From Thomasclavelia sp. (GTDB lineage: Bacteria > Bacillota_I > Bacilli_A > Erysipelotrichales > Coprobacillaceae): a stretch of DNA of 64,000 bases. The notes under the pieces were generated by a model. It saw nothing but the letters and a program-made list of their open reading frames with translations. It ran no database searches and was not told the origin of the DNA. The stretch covers positions 1 through 64,000 of the forward strand of contig JAQVWN010000009.1 of the NCBI GenBank assembly GCA_028749475.1, given 5' to 3'. Both the position numbers and the translations under genes were made by a program. Positions 23,501-33,164 of the stretch are shown one piece after another. Numbering within the stretch: position 1 is the stretch's first letter; each line of letters begins with the position of its first letter.

Positions 23501-23514
23501 ATATGGAGATGTTT

Positions 23515-25674
23515 ATGAATATTACAAAAAGGATCAAAACTTATGAACCATTTTTTAATGATTATTATTTAGATACAATCGAATTTCAACAATATAGTTC
23601 TACTTTTATTAAAGTAAAATCTACTAATCCAAAACATGAAGAAGCTCATGTTTTAATTTGTACTATTTTTAAAAGTGATGAAGAAGTAACGGAAGTTGAT
23701 TTAGAAGAAGAGGCTAATCGATTTGCTCAAGACTCTAAAAAAGCGAATCCAATCTTTGTGTCTTATGAATACTATTATATCGAAGATGAGAGCCATAATA
23801 CTATTGGAATAGATGTTTGTTTCTTAATATATGAGGATACTTCTTTTAAAATAGAAGGAGAAGGCTTATCCAATTATTATGATGGAATGACCTTCTATAA
23901 TAATAAAGAATACGAGAAGGCATATAAGTGCTTTTATGAAGGATACCAAAATCATGATCCGGATTGTGTATATGCTTTAGCTTACCTTGCAGAGGAAGGA
24001 AAAGGCACTGATAAAGATTATAATAAAGCTCTGCAATTATATAAAAAAGCCAGTGATTTAGATAATGATTTAGCTAGTATGAAAGTTGGAGAAATGTATG
24101 AAGATGATTCTTTGGATGAACCTAACTATCAAGAAGCTCAAAAATACTTTGAAAGAGCAGCTACTAATGAATACCCACCAGCTTTTGAAGCTTTAGGGAG
24201 ACTTTCATTATTAGTTGATAATACTAACTACAATGATGCTAAAGCTTACTTTGAAAAAGGACGAGATTTAGGTGATTATGCCTGTTCCTTTAATCTAGGT
24301 GTTATGTACGAACAAGGTGTAGGTGTTAGACAAGATTATATTAAAGCTTACAAATATTATTTGGAAGCGGCGAGCCAAGGTGATGTTGCTGGGCAGATGG
24401 CCTTATCAATTCTTTTAGAGAATGGGAATGGATGTAATAAAGATCTTGAGGAATCCTTATCTTGGTTAAAAGAAGCAGCTGAAGGCGGCTACGCTCCTGC
24501 AAAAGACACTCTAGCTACTAAGTATTTATATGGAGAAGGTGTAAAGGAAGATAAAAAGCAAGCTTACTCATTATGCCTGGAATCAGCAAATTTAGGTTAC
24601 CCACCTGCTATGTATCATTTGGCAAACTATTTAATTATTAAGAATGATAAAAAAGATTATCAAGAAATAAATAGTTTATTAACAAAAGCTAGTAATCAAA
24701 ACTATGGACCAGCAATTATTGATTTAGCCTATTATACTCATAAAGGTTATTATGGAACTAAACAAGATGATAAAAAAGCTTTTGAATTATATATGCAAGG
24801 AGCTAGTCTTAAAGATAGCGTAGCTCTTTCTTGTGTTGGAGCTTGCTACGAAGAAGGAATAGGTGTTTTAAAAAACAGATTAAAAGCCATGGAATATTAT
24901 AAAAAAGCTATTGCTCTTGGTGATAATCAAGCTATGTATAATTTAGCTATTATGTATTTGGATGGAAAAAGCACCAAACCTTACGAATATGACCAAGCCA
25001 TAGAATACTTAAATCATTGTGCTAACAATAATTTGGGGTTGGCTTGTCTTACTCTAAGTGAGTTATATGAAGATGGCTTTCAAGTAGAAAAAGATGATGA
25101 TAAGTCATTTGAATATCTAAAGAAAGCCTATGATTTAGATGTTAAAGAATCATACGAAAGAATGGAAAAATATTATTTGTTGAAGGGTAATGATGAAGAA
25201 GCCTTTAAAGTCATCAAAAAGGCGGCTAAAGAAGGAATACCTTATTATCAAGCAAAACTAGCGCTGCAATATTTAACCCCTTCAAATAAAGATATATTTG
25301 ATTTAGATTTAGGAATTAAAATATTAGAAGATGCATCAAATTCTAATAATATTGATGCATTATTACTACTTGGTTCAATATATGAAGAAGGTAAATTATT
25401 ACCTAAAGATTTAAAAAAAGCTATTAATTATTATAATATAGCTGCCAAAGTAGGAAGCTTTGATGCTTTAGCTTATTTAGGATTTGCTTATCTTCATAAT
25501 GAAGAAATTAAAGATATTGATAAAGCTTTTAAGTTAGCGACAGAATCTTATAATAAAGGCTCAATATTAGCTATCGATTTATTAATTGAAATAAATACAA
25601 TCCAAGGTAATATTAAAGAAGTAAAAAGATTAGAAAATGAAAGAGGAAATATTAATGAAAAAAAGTATCGATGA
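23515..25674 (+). CDS. Sel1-repeat (TPR-like) protein
   Basis: The protein has 719 residues from the ATG at 23515. GGAG lies 6 nt before this codon, while an ATG four codons earlier has no site and sits on the -10-like box. After about 115 N-terminal residues without a known domain, the protein is a run of more than a dozen Sel1-like repeats of about 36 residues. Repeated signatures are AYLAEEGKGTDKDYNKAL, MYEQGVGVRQDYIKA and CYEEGIGVLKNRLKA. Such helical solenoids bind other proteins. There is no signal peptide, so it is cytoplasmic; the partner is unknown. Its end overlaps the next gene's start by 20 nt. Confidence 0.88.
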   Translation: MNITKRIKTYEPFFNDYYLDTIEFQQYSSTFIKVKSTNPKHEEAHVLICTIFKSDEEVTEVDLEEEANRFAQDSKKANPIFVSYEYYYIEDESHNTIGIDVCFLIYEDTSFKIEGEGLSNYYDGMTFYNNKEYEKAYKCFYEGYQNHDPDCVYALAYLAEEGKGTDKDYNKALQLYKKASDLDNDLASMKVGEMYEDDSLDEPNYQEAQKYFERAATNEYPPAFEALGRLSLLVDNTNYNDAKAYFEKGRDLGDYACSFNLGVMYEQGVGVRQDYIKAYKYYLEAASQGDVAGQMALSILLENGNGCNKDLEESLSWLKEAAEGGYAPAKDTLATKYLYGEGVKEDKKQAYSLCLESANLGYPPAMYHLANYLIIKNDKKDYQEINSLLTKASNQNYGPAIIDLAYYTHKGYYGTKQDDKKAFELYMQGASLKDSVALSCVGACYEEGIGVLKNRLKAMEYYKKAIALGDNQAMYNLAIMYLDGKSTKPYEYDQAIEYLNHCANNNLGLACLTLSELYEDGFQVEKDDDKSFEYLKKAYDLDVKESYERMEKYYLLKGNDEEAFKVIKKAAKEGIPYYQAKLALQYLTPSNKDIFDLDLGIKILEDASNSNNIDALLLLGSIYEEGKLLPKDLKKAINYYNIAAKVGSFDALAYLGFAYLHNEEIKDIDKAFKLATESYNKGSILAIDLLIEINTIQGNIKEVKRLENERGNINEKKYR

Positions 25675-28999: not shown

Positions 29000-29254
29000 G
29001 TGTCCATTATCGCTAATACAGGGAAAAGACGAATGTGTCGTTGCGTGGAAACAATGGACATCGTAGTCGGAAAAGAAAAGAGAGATCTTTTTACCAAAGG
29101 TAAAGTATACCATTGTGTTATTCATGATGATGAAAAAACACAAATAAACTATAAAATATATGGTGATGAATACGACCTTTCATGTACTGAAAATGAGTTT
29201 AATAGTAATTTTGTAATAATTAAAAATAAAAAAACAGGTATTAAAAATGATTAA
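29000..29254 (+). CDS. Small unknown protein with an unclear start
   Basis: The product has up to 84 residues and is not recognised. The core CRCVETMDIVVGKEK ... TKGKVYHCVIHDDE ... YDLSCTENEFNSNF resembles small beta-barrel proteins with a KGKxY motif, seen in phage and accessory genes. Three starts compete. GTG at 29000 lies 1 nt after the strong GGGAGG. ATG at 29033 has a weak GGGA 8 nt upstream. An ATT at 29006 has ideal spacing to GGGAGG but is a rare start. Coordinates give the widest reading. It overlaps the GNAT start by 8 nt. Confidence 0.6.
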   Translation: MSIIANTGKRRMCRCVETMDIVVGKEKRDLFTKGKVYHCVIHDDEKTQINYKIYGDEYDLSCTENEFNSNFVIIKNKKTGIKND

Positions 29255-29756
29255 TTATCAATTATTAAAAGAAGAAGAAATAGATGATTATTATAATTTT
29301 TTAACAAAATATTTTCCTCAATTAGAAATAAGATCTTATGAGGATACATGCTTGCATTTAAAAAATGATAATATAGTGGAAGTAAATAAAAATAATAATG
29401 AATTTATTAGTATAGTGAGTTATTATAAATTAGATAAATATATTTATATTGAATATTTGGCAGTGAATTCTAAATACCAATCTATAGGGTTAGGATCAAA
29501 AACTTTAAAGTATTTACAAAATAAATATTCAAATATTATTTTAGAAGTCGAACTTATTGAAGATGAGATTACTAAAAGAAGAGTAGACTTTTATAAAAGA
29601 AATAATTTTAAATATAATGAACAAGAATATTGGATTGGACCTATTAATAAAGAATTAAATAAGAAGGTTGAACTAAAGTTAATGTCTTATCCAAGCAAAT
29701 TAAATGACATTGAGTTTAAAAACATTTACAATTTAATAAGCAGTGTTTATAAATAA
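29247..29756 (+). CDS. GNAT-family N-acetyltransferase
   Basis: This 169-residue acetyl-CoA-dependent acyltransferase of the GNAT fold has the core strand YIYIEYLAVNSKYQ, the pyrophosphate loop SIGLGSKTL (Q/RxxGxG/A motif), the following helix, and FYKRNNFKYNEQEYW as motif B. The acceptor could be a small molecule or protein and cannot be deduced. The start overlaps the upstream small gene, so both are likely read from one message. The stop lies in a terminator stem. Confidence 0.85.
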   Translation: MINYQLLKEEEIDDYYNFLTKYFPQLEIRSYEDTCLHLKNDNIVEVNKNNNEFISIVSYYKLDKYIYIEYLAVNSKYQSIGLGSKTLKYLQNKYSNIILEVELIEDEITKRRVDFYKRNNFKYNEQEYWIGPINKELNKKVELKLMSYPSKLNDIEFKNIYNLISSVYK

Positions 29757-29778
29757 AGAACGATAGTTCTTTATTTTC
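29751..29778 (+). terminator. Terminator after the GNAT gene
   Basis: The perfect 11-bp stem AAATAAAGAAC / GTTCTTTATTT has a GATA loop and overlaps the stop codon. Confidence 0.75.
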
Positions 29779-29794
29779 ATCTGGAGAATCTACT

Positions 29795-31135
29795 ATGAAT
29801 GAAAGACTAAAAAATGAAAAAATATCAAAATTGTTGGTATCATTAGCGATACCTTCAATTCTAGCTCAAATAGTTACTTTACTTTATAACATGGTAGATC
29901 GAATCTACATTGGGAGAATAACTAATGGAGCTTTAGCGATAGCTGGAATAGGACTATGTGCATCAATTATTACTATCATTACGGCTTTTACTAATCTGTT
30001 TGGAAGAGGTGGCGCTCCTCTTGCTTCAATCAAACTAGGAGAAGGAAGAAATGATGAAGCTAGTAAATATTTATGTAATTGTTTTATGTCGCTTATTATA
30101 AGTGGAATTGTGATTACCATAATTATATTTTTATTTGGAGATAATATCTTAATGTTATTTGGAGCAAGTGATAGAACTTTACCCTATGCTCATAACTATT
30201 TATACATTTACGCTATTGGGACAATATTTGTTCAACTAAGTGTTGGCATGAATTATTTTATTAATACTCAAGGTTATGCCAAATTTGGAATGTTAACACT
30301 AGTAATTGGTGGTGTGTTAAATATTGTTTTAGATCCTATCTTTATTTTTGGATTAAATATGGGAGTGGCTGGAGCAGCCTTAGCCACTATAATAAGTCAA
30401 TGTGTATCATGCATGTGGGTTCTTAAATTTTTGTTTTCTAAAAGATCGACAATAAAAATAAAAAAAGAATATATGAAATTTGATGGTCGAGTAATGAAGA
30501 AAATCTTATCTTTAGGTATTTCACCATTCTTTATGAATTCAACTGAAGGAATTCTACAAGTATGTTTTAACCGTCAACTATTATTCTTTGGTGGGGATAT
30601 GGCCGTAAGTTCAATGACTATTATGTCTTCTCTTGCACAGATGTTATTTTTACCAATGGAAGGAATAGCCCAAGGCTCTCAACCAATAATATCATTTAAC
30701 TATGGAGCTCATAATTATAAACGAGTTAAGGAAACTATTTTTCTAGCAATGAGAGTTGCACTTATTTATTCAATTATTGGGGTTACATTAATAGAATTAT
30801 TCCCACAAGTATTTGTTGGTCTGTTTACTAATGATCCTAAACTAATAACTCTTGGTTGTAAGATGGCTCGAATTTATATCTTTGGATATGCAATTCTAGG
30901 TGCTAACTCAACATTTCAACAATCTTATACTTCTCTTGGGGAAGCTAAGCGTTCATTTTTCTTTGCGTTTTATCGTAAGATAATATTATTAATACCTTTA
31001 ATTTATCTAATTCCTGCTGTTAGTTCACTAGGAATGTGGGGTGTTATGCTTGCTGAACCTATTAGTGATATTTTAACAACCTTAACTAATGGTGTGTTCT
31101 TCTTTAAATATGTTAGAACTAAACTTAAAACATAA
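29795..31135 (+). CDS. MATE-family multidrug/sodium efflux transporter
   Basis: The 446-residue membrane protein has about twelve hydrophobic segments in two similar halves. The N-terminus matches the DinF/NorM group (KLLVSLAIPSILAQIVTLLY, then NMVDRIYIGRI), and the second half has LGISPFFMNSTEGI and an EGIAQGSQPIISFNYGA segment typical of the MATE family. Substrates are usually drugs or cationic toxins exchanged for sodium or protons. The site GGAG is 9 nt before the ATG. Its neighbours give no clue to the substrate. Confidence 0.93.
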   Translation: MNERLKNEKISKLLVSLAIPSILAQIVTLLYNMVDRIYIGRITNGALAIAGIGLCASIITIITAFTNLFGRGGAPLASIKLGEGRNDEASKYLCNCFMSLIISGIVITIIIFLFGDNILMLFGASDRTLPYAHNYLYIYAIGTIFVQLSVGMNYFINTQGYAKFGMLTLVIGGVLNIVLDPIFIFGLNMGVAGAALATIISQCVSCMWVLKFLFSKRSTIKIKKEYMKFDGRVMKKILSLGISPFFMNSTEGILQVCFNRQLLFFGGDMAVSSMTIMSSLAQMLFLPMEGIAQGSQPIISFNYGAHNYKRVKETIFLAMRVALIYSIIGVTLIELFPQVFVGLFTNDPKLITLGCKMARIYIFGYAILGANSTFQQSYTSLGEAKRSFFFAFYRKIILLIPLIYLIPAVSSLGMWGVMLAEPISDILTTLTNGVFFFKYVRTKLKT

Positions 31136-31202
31136 TTCTATCTAATTTGTGGCATATTTTAATTTATGGTAGAATATAGTGACCTAAAAAGGAGTGAACT
31201 AT

Positions 31203-33164
31203 ATGAATAAGAACTTCATTATTGAAGGAATAAACAATACAGATGATATAAATGCTTTGTCACTTAGATTAAATGAATTAGAAGAAGTTACTAGAATTAA
31301 AATTTTAAAGACTTCTATTTCATTTTATTGTGCTCAACCCGATAGTATTCAAAAAGTACTTGATGAACTAGAAATGGATTATCAAATCAAAGAAATAGTG
31401 AATTCTAAAAAGAGAGTATATGAGGGTAATACTAAAAAACAAAAAGTTACTTTTTTATTCACTAATTTAGAAGATGCTGAAGAAGCGAAAGCTATTGAAG
31501 AAGTGCTATCAAAATATAGTGCTTTTGAAGATGTTAATCTAGATTTTAATAATAAACTATTAACTTTAAATACAGCTAATAATGAACCAATTAATCGTAT
31601 TAGAAGATTATGCCAAACAGTAAATCCTGAAATTGATGTTGAACAATGGCATAAACCATTTAAATCTCAAGATATCTTCCAAGAAAAATACTTAAACAGA
31701 TTTATTAGAATAGCTGTTCTAATTGTCTTCTTAGCTATTGGAGTTGTTACTAGAGATGATCTAACAATTCTAACAAGGATATCTTGGTTTGTTGCTCTTG
31801 CTGTAACGATGGAAAAAACTATTAAATATGCAATTAGAGATATTAAAGGTAAACAGTATCTTACTGAACACACTTTAATTATCTTGTCATTATGTGCTGG
31901 TTGGATTTATGGTTTCTTTGATAGTAATGTCTATTTTGAAGCTTATCTTGTAGCTCTAATATATTTATTATGGGAAGGAATTTTAGTAAGACTTATTAAC
32001 CTTACTATGGAAAGAATAGATCGTTTATTAAATCCACCAACTACTGTTCATAAGTATATTGATAAAAATACTATTGAAGATGTCGATATAAATGATATTG
32101 ATATTGATGATCAAATTATTGTTAGAGATGGAGAAAGGGTATTACTTGGTGGTAAAGTAATGGCTGGTAAAGCAAACCTTGATACATTTGCAATTGATGG
32201 TAATGAAATAAATGAACAATCAAAAAGATATCAAGATGTTAGCAGTGGAACTGTTGTTCTTGATGGAGAAATAAGATTGAAGGTTACTGCTAGTTATGAA
32301 TCTTCAGCATTAAGTCAAGTCATCGAACTTGCTACTAACGCTCCTTTATCAAAGAGTAGAACTGCTCATTTAGTTGAACTAGTGTCAAAATATTATTCTA
32401 TTGGATTAGCGATAGTTGCTTTAATTTGTGTAATTATCATTCCATTTCTAAATCCAATTGAAAATGGTAAATATATTTATTTAGGAGCTATTATGTTTGT
32501 AATGGCTGGTTCATTTGCCTATAAACAAGGTGCAGAATTTTCAATCTTATCTGCTTTAGCTAATGCTTTCTCTAGACATATAATTGTTAAGGAAAATAGT
32601 GGATTAGATGATATAAATGTCTGTAAGACAATTATCTATGATCGTTTTGATGGAATCGAAATGACTGAAGAAGAAACTGAATTATTTAAAAATATTCAAG
32701 GGTTACATCGTGACTTAATTATCTTTAATGATGGACCAACTGATTTAGAAAATGATGAATTTAAAATCTACAACAATTTAAATATTGAAGAAAAATTAGA
32801 AGTAATGGAAAAAGCTCAATTAGTTTCTCCTGTTGTTTATGTCGGAGATTGTGAAAAAGATGTTTCTCTTCTTCAAAAAGCTGATGTTGCTGTAGCTAGA
32901 GGTGGAGTTCATAATAAGAAAGTTCAAAATAATGCTGATATTTTAATTACTGATTCTAGTTTTGATACAGTTTTTGATTTATTTGTTTTATCAAAGAAAC
33001 AAAAAGTTACAGCTATTGAAAATACTGTTGTTGGTATGACTGTTTCTTTAATTGTAGTCCTTATCGCTTTATCATTTGCGACTTCTTGGGCTGGAGCTTT
33101 TTGTGTGTATGTTTTAGAAGCAATCTTTGTATTGCTTAATACTCATCGAATAATTGATTATTAA
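31203..33164 (+). CDS. P1B-type ATPase-like pseudoenzyme
   Basis: The protein has 653 residues from the ATG at 31203 (site AAAGGAG). The overall plan is a heavy-metal P-type ATPase: two N-terminal ferredoxin-like HMA domains (about 1-70 and 78-150), membrane segments around 167-265, an actuator-like domain (about 280-380), two further helices, a phosphorylation-like domain and a final helix pair. Key motifs are missing: neither HMA domain has CxxC, TGES reads DGNE (332-335), the CPC region reads GSFAYKQG (436-443), DKTGT reads DRFDG with only Asp480 kept, and GDGxND reads GDCEKD. Only about 65 residues separate these last two motifs, so the nucleotide-binding domain is essentially absent. Transport is not expected; a non-catalytic role is inferred. 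Confidence 0.85.
   Translation: MNKNFIIEGINNTDDINALSLRLNELEEVTRIKILKTSISFYCAQPDSIQKVLDELEMDYQIKEIVNSKKRVYEGNTKKQKVTFLFTNLEDAEEAKAIEEVLSKYSAFEDVNLDFNNKLLTLNTANNEPINRIRRLCQTVNPEIDVEQWHKPFKSQDIFQEKYLNRFIRIAVLIVFLAIGVVTRDDLTILTRISWFVALAVTMEKTIKYAIRDIKGKQYLTEHTLIILSLCAGWIYGFFDSNVYFEAYLVALIYLLWEGILVRLINLTMERIDRLLNPPTTVHKYIDKNTIEDVDINDIDIDDQIIVRDGERVLLGGKVMAGKANLDTFAIDGNEINEQSKRYQDVSSGTVVLDGEIRLKVTASYESSALSQVIELATNAPLSKSRTAHLVELVSKYYSIGLAIVALICVIIIPFLNPIENGKYIYLGAIMFVMAGSFAYKQGAEFSILSALANAFSRHIIVKENSGLDDINVCKTIIYDRFDGIEMTEEETELFKNIQGLHRDLIIFNDGPTDLENDEFKIYNNLNIEEKLEVMEKAQLVSPVVYVGDCEKDVSLLQKADVAVARGGVHNKKVQNNADILITDSSFDTVFDLFVLSKKQKVTAIENTVVGMTVSLIVVLIALSFATSWAGAFCVYVLEAIFVLLNTHRIIDY

Follow-up and report, generated by a model that had tools for sequence, protein, structure and literature searches.

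P-type ATPases are textbook pumps, and it is generally held that their function cannot be separated from their motifs. What, then, is the role of a protein that keeps the architecture of a P1B-ATPase and has lost those motifs? The question is raised by a gene (Table 1) in the window analyzed here, a stretch of 64,000 nucleotides from contig JAQVWN010000009.1 of Thomasclavelia sp. (GCA_028749475.1). A first-pass annotation had called its frame intact at 653 residues, and the ATG at 31203, the stop codon at 33162-33164 and the Shine-Dalgarno-like GGAG agree with that call. The genome carries a single copy of this gene, here termed pseudo-P1B, together with two conventional intact P1B pumps (L002 and L003). 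By consensus match, the gene has its own promoter-like element, recurrent upstream of its orthologues: an extended -10 lies no more than 75 nt from the start in 22 of 30 orthologues, compared with a mean of 0.28 and a maximum of 2 for shuffled sequences.

By sequence and predicted fold, pseudo-P1B is a full-length P1B-ATPase homologue. The NCBIfam model ATPase-IB_hvy matched it with an E value of 6.5e-44, scoring 151 bits where the cut-off is 346, and the best sequence match in the PDB (phmmer) was the zinc pump ZntA (4umv). The AF2 model (mean pLDDT 80.8) matched ATP7B and ZntA in Foldseek at E values of about 1e-22, with CopA also among the best solved relatives; its pTM is 0.60, so the arrangement of the domains is uncertain. 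The model shows two N-terminal beta-alpha-beta-beta-alpha-beta domains, as in the HMA fold, followed by long hydrophobic helices in P1B order. The membrane, actuator-like and P-domains match P1B pumps by both sequence and fold. A PDB profile search with the P-domain returned P1B P-domains, and P-type ATPases remain its closest relatives by sequence; Pfam HAD models matched only at E values of 0.02-0.06. The P1B layout proposed at first pass (two HMA folds, membrane segments, actuator and P-domain) is thus recovered by the sequence searches and by the structural comparison with known pumps it had suggested, with the HMA assignment weak by sequence (best Pfam HMA match below the Pfam cut-off).

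Table 1. Coordinates and basis of the features of the pseudo-P1B locus and its eroded orthologues
Feature	Position	Strand	Basis or remark
Pseudo-P1B-ATPase gene	31203-33164	+	653 aa, ATG start
Promoter-like element TTGTGG-17-TAGAAT, extended -10 TATGGTAGAAT at 31165-31175	31147-31175	+	consensus match
Shine-Dalgarno-like GGAG	31191-31194	+	upstream of ATG at 31203
First HMA-like domain, residues 1-70, without CxxC	31203-31412	+	AF2 secondary structure, alignment
Second HMA-like domain, residues 78-152, without CxxC	31434-31658	+	AF2; weak Pfam HMA, E 0.0078
First membrane block (MA, MB, M1, M2), residues 155-276	31665-32030	+	AF2 helices; alignment to own pump
Actuator-like domain, residues 277-385	32031-32357	+	Pfam E1-E2_ATPase, E 7.2e-22
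DGNE replacing TGES, residues 332-335	32196-32207	+	alignment
M3-M4, residues 386-458	32358-32576	+	alignment
S437-F438-A439 replacing CPC	32511-32519	+	alignment
Compact HAD P-domain, residues 459-590, without N-domain insertion	32577-32972	+	conservation; PDB profile matches
Y-D480-R-F-D-G replacing DKTGT; D480 aligned to phosphorylated Asp	32637-32654	+	alignment, PDB profiles
N509-D-G-P replacing TGD motif (HAD motif II)	32727-32738	+	alignment
K531, HAD motif III lysine, invariant	32793-32795	+	alignment, PDB profiles
G548-D549-C-E-K-D553, GDxxKD replacing GDGxND (HAD motif IV)	32844-32861	+	alignment, PDB profiles
M5-M6, residues 591-653	32973-33161	+	0 invariant positions among 30 members
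c2, small SH3-like barrel protein, about 80 residues, invariant C13, C15, C39, C62	29000-29254	+	alignment, predicted fold
Two still more eroded orthologues	L112:4011-5804; L139:1936-3732	both -	one without P-domain; one without first HMA-like domain and motif IV acids

Alignment of 30 family members bore out the absence of CxxC, CPC, TGES, literal KTGT and GDGxND noted at first pass, and located the same losses in all 30 members. Neither HMA-like domain carries CxxC, and hence neither has the GMxCxxC metal motif. In place of DKTGT, the aligned members carry YDRFDG (one has YDRYDG), keeping the Asp and losing KTGT. The TGE dephosphorylation loop is replaced by DGNE, DGSD, NGSD, NGND or TSTY/TSSY. 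The GDGxND hinge has become GDxxKD, in which both Asp residues are kept and the G and N are lost. At the CPx site of M4, neither Cys nor Pro occurs in the motif window among the 12 commonest variants listed, and a string search of 8 members returned no CPC. The N-domain with its HP motif is missing from both the alignment and the AF2 model. It had been described as shrunk to about 65 residues; it is instead deleted, with 29 residues and one predicted helix between D480 and N509; in L002, a pump of the same genome, 139 residues separate D510 from TGD649. All 19 conventional P1B pumps compared have DKTGT and GDG[IV]ND. TGE and CPC occur in nearly all of them; in a few the first CPx match falls outside M4, and one (L101) has no literal TGE.

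Calling the protein devoid of catalytic motifs nevertheless overstates the loss. D480, K531, D549 and D553 are invariant in 30 of 30 aligned members and are also kept in the divergent member G025. In HAD enzymes these sites correspond to the Asp that is phosphorylated, the lysine of motif III and the two residues that bind Mg. The Asp of YDRFDG, K531, NDGP and GDxxKD are all held throughout the 30 members, and YDRFDG, NDGP and GDxxKD serve as new signatures of the family. No feature of the family is better conserved than this HAD tetrad, and phosphoryl binding or phosphatase chemistry may persist; the conserved acids might also be solely structural and hold the fold.

Intact, single, full-length copies of pseudo-P1B without internal stops occur in 32 of 43 Coprobacillaceae genomes, some of which are incomplete, at 31-51% identity, and 2 more (G006 and G008) hold orthologues that are further eroded and lie in the same position or close to it. 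When 84,980 species were scanned for the motifs, matches among named records were confined to the Coprobacillaceae group, namely Thomasclavelia, Faecalibacillus, Massilimicrobiota, Longibaculum, Stoquefichus and relatives; we take Massilimicrobiota and Stoquefichus to belong to Coprobacillaceae. The gene was not seen in the searched sister family of the order. Samples of the class and phylum (about 780 genomes) gave nothing outside Coprobacillaceae above the conventional-pump background (190-209 bits versus 535-1046). A fully supported branch separates every member placed in the tree, the very divergent G006 and G025 among them, from the conventional pumps, and the stem of the clade measures 2.56 substitutions per column. 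The G006 branch is very long, and its position inside the clade is unsure. In our preferred reading, a P1B-ATPase turned non-pumping in an ancestor within Coprobacillaceae.

Selection on the gene is purifying. The dN/dS comparison suggested at first pass gave 0.035-0.16 in the closest pairs and 0.115 pooled over 10 close pairs. By domain, the pooled ratio is lowest in the P-domain (0.072), followed by the HMA-like domains (0.080 and 0.091), and reaches 0.124-0.170 in the membrane blocks, the first being highest at 0.170. Of the 68 invariant residues, 38 fall in the P-domain (38/132), which makes up a fifth of the protein and is the most conserved region of the alignment; M5-M6 hold none (0/63). 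In a comparison with 8 similarly divergent conventional pumps (mean identity 49% versus 45%), invariant membrane positions drop fourfold, from 72/251 to 18/255, and invariant P-domain positions by a third, from 44/92 to 30/91 (Fisher p 0.006, in a test that treats positions as independent). This pattern would be expected if transport was abandoned and the HAD pocket retained. The core of the first-pass proposal, that selection preserves a pump relative for a non-transport role, stands: the motif losses in 30 of 30 members, the low dN/dS and the motifs kept by the conventional pumps favor it. The retained tetrad, however, means that the catalytic core is not wholly lost, and the sensing or scaffolding suggested there would be a candidate role. 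As to the opposite possibility, a single recent decayed copy among homologues with intact motifs, the 32 intact frames and the dN/dS of the close pairs rule it out.

The two eroded orthologues deserve separate mention. The G006 copy adjoins c2 and has no P-domain; the G008 copy lies directly after prfC, has no first HMA-like domain and reads GESKHI in place of GDxxKD. With a single genome behind each, either the HAD pocket appears dispensable in at least two lineages or these copies are on their way out. The HAD site is lost in both, and so the pocket cannot account for all of the function in every lineage.

Pseudo-P1B is part of a conserved block that runs prfC, c2, pseudo-P1B, RluA-type pseudouridine synthase, infC and rplT, with glycerate kinase directly after pseudo-P1B in clade B. 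A metal operon was considered and rejected at this locus, where the neighbors are prfC, pseudouridine synthase, infC and rplT; nothing in the neighborhood points to metals, and no pump gene or metal regulator is linked. In relatives without the module, prfC is followed by glycerate kinase, RluA and infC, directly or via a membrane protein of about 210 residues, and the module therefore fills a defined slot. This membrane protein was found between prfC and glycerate kinase at L127:3620-4243, L129:2902-3531, L130:3041-3673 and L132:3038-3691 (all -) and at L131:1889-2560 (+). In the present window, GNAT and MATE genes (29247-31135) lie between c2 and the pseudo-P1B gene; the GNAT gene is common to some relatives, and the MATE gene did not cluster with any neighbor in relatives. 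Further upstream, a 723-aa Sel1-like repeat protein (23503-25674) precedes an M29 peptidase and prfC and is common to several relatives.

The c2 family had no Pfam match, weak PHROG matches and no significant fold match, and is SH3-like at best. A profile search found c2 in 34 of 196 genomes of the order, all Coprobacillaceae: the 32 with the intact gene, G006 and G018. It nearly always lies near the pseudo-P1B gene, a co-occurrence confounded by common descent. The idea of c2 as an obligate partner was rejected: G018 has c2 without the gene, and G008 has the gene without c2, but its genome is only 69% complete. From linkage and co-occurrence, c2 is a candidate partner of pseudo-P1B.

What would such a protein do? 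Comparison with P1B pumps indicates loss of the N-domain, CxxC, CPC and TGES, an unconserved membrane path and continued purifying selection, and we infer that an ATP-driven transport cycle would be beyond its capacity. Clade-wide retention of a pump-shaped protein suggests that a pump was repurposed as a sensor, a switch or a small phosphatase. Our preferred reading, on which we are evenly divided, is a non-pumping, ATP-independent membrane protein that would act as a switch or sensor, its HAD pocket binding Mg2+ along with either phosphate or a ligand that carries it. The pocket formed by D480, K531, D549 and D553, with the new invariant N-D-G-P and R481/D483, would hold Mg2+ and, with it, either phosphate, a ligand bearing a phosphate, or a small phosphodonor. 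The actuator-like and HMA-like domains would then receive this state, so that the membrane-anchored protein would serve as a sensor, a switch or a platform for docking. We propose only tentatively the more specific version, in which the pump cycle was replaced throughout a bacterial family: the P-type frame would be an ATP-independent phospho-switch or sensor, a ligand or phosphodonor would bind at the Asp where the pump was once phosphorylated, and the readout would pass through the actuator and HMA-like domains to a dedicated four-cysteine partner.

The main rival, which we consider somewhat less probable than that version, is a membrane-tethered HAD phosphatase, whose capless, open domain would use D480 to hydrolyze a phosphorylated lipid, protein or small molecule. 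The nucleophile D1, the lysine of motif III and the two acids of motif IV are all invariant, the P-domain is the most constrained part, and the AF2 model suggests an accessible active site now that the large insertion is gone. However, the acid/base Asp that most HAD phosphatases have at D1+2 is Phe/Tyr here (D-R-F-D), so that the invariant Asp at +3, D483, would need to take its place; the motif II Ser/Thr is replaced by Asn; and P-type ATPases remain the best P-domain sequence match. Pseudoenzymes commonly act by pairing with an active homologue, and pseudo-P1B could likewise be a regulatory subunit that pairs with an intact P1B ATPase of the same cell and tunes it. L002 and L003 would be available for this, but the missing linkage to a pump gene or metal regulator and the membrane helices being the least conserved part make it unlikely. 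Less likely again is a transporter or channel that still moves another substrate without ATP. The P1B helix layout is retained in the AF2 model, and in clade B the lysine of M5 is retained and Glu stands at the M6 Asp position; yet few polar membrane residues are conserved, none of them invariant in M5-M6, the CPC site and its neighbors differ between clades, and no coupling machinery is visible, so that the conservation pattern weakens this reading. A decaying pseudogene open by chance, to which the motif losses and the further erosion in G006 and G008 might point, is refuted for the main clade by the number of intact frames, the low dN/dS, the conserved promoter-like element and the invariant residues, and is highly improbable except that the G006 and G008 copies individually could be decaying.

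Set beside known systems, pseudo-P1B resembles P1B ATPases (CadA/ZntA, CopA/ATP7B) in domain order, its two HMA-like N-terminal domains, P1B-order helices, and actuator-like and HAD P-domains. It differs from them in the lost N-domain and motifs, the unconserved membrane path, its separate clade and an NCBIfam score far below the cut-off. With C0 capless HAD phosphatases it shares D1, the motif III Lys, the motif IV Asp pair and a compact Rossmann-like domain, whereas the residues at D1+2 and in motif II and the P1B membrane frame set it apart. Soluble P-type-ATPase-like HAD proteins of the MJ0968 type have a P-type HAD domain outside a complete pump and no membrane part; as they are generally described, pseudo-P1B differs in keeping the membrane part and losing the N-domain. 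Selection on an enzyme fold after loss of catalytic motifs, as in pseudo-P1B, is described for pseudoenzymes in two reviews (PMC5106787, PMC10211241). In a literature search mostly of papers outside subscription, we found no example of a pseudo P-type ATPase and no clade-wide conserved P-type ATPase family without the nucleotide-binding domain.

Weak pump-family matches put these genes at risk of annotation as metal pumps. They occur in common gut bacteria (Thomasclavelia, Faecalibacillus and Massilimicrobiota), some with cultured type strains. In this family, evolution has separated the parts of a pump, the transport path drifting and the phosphorylation pocket being held, and this separation lets one ask what the P-domain does alone.
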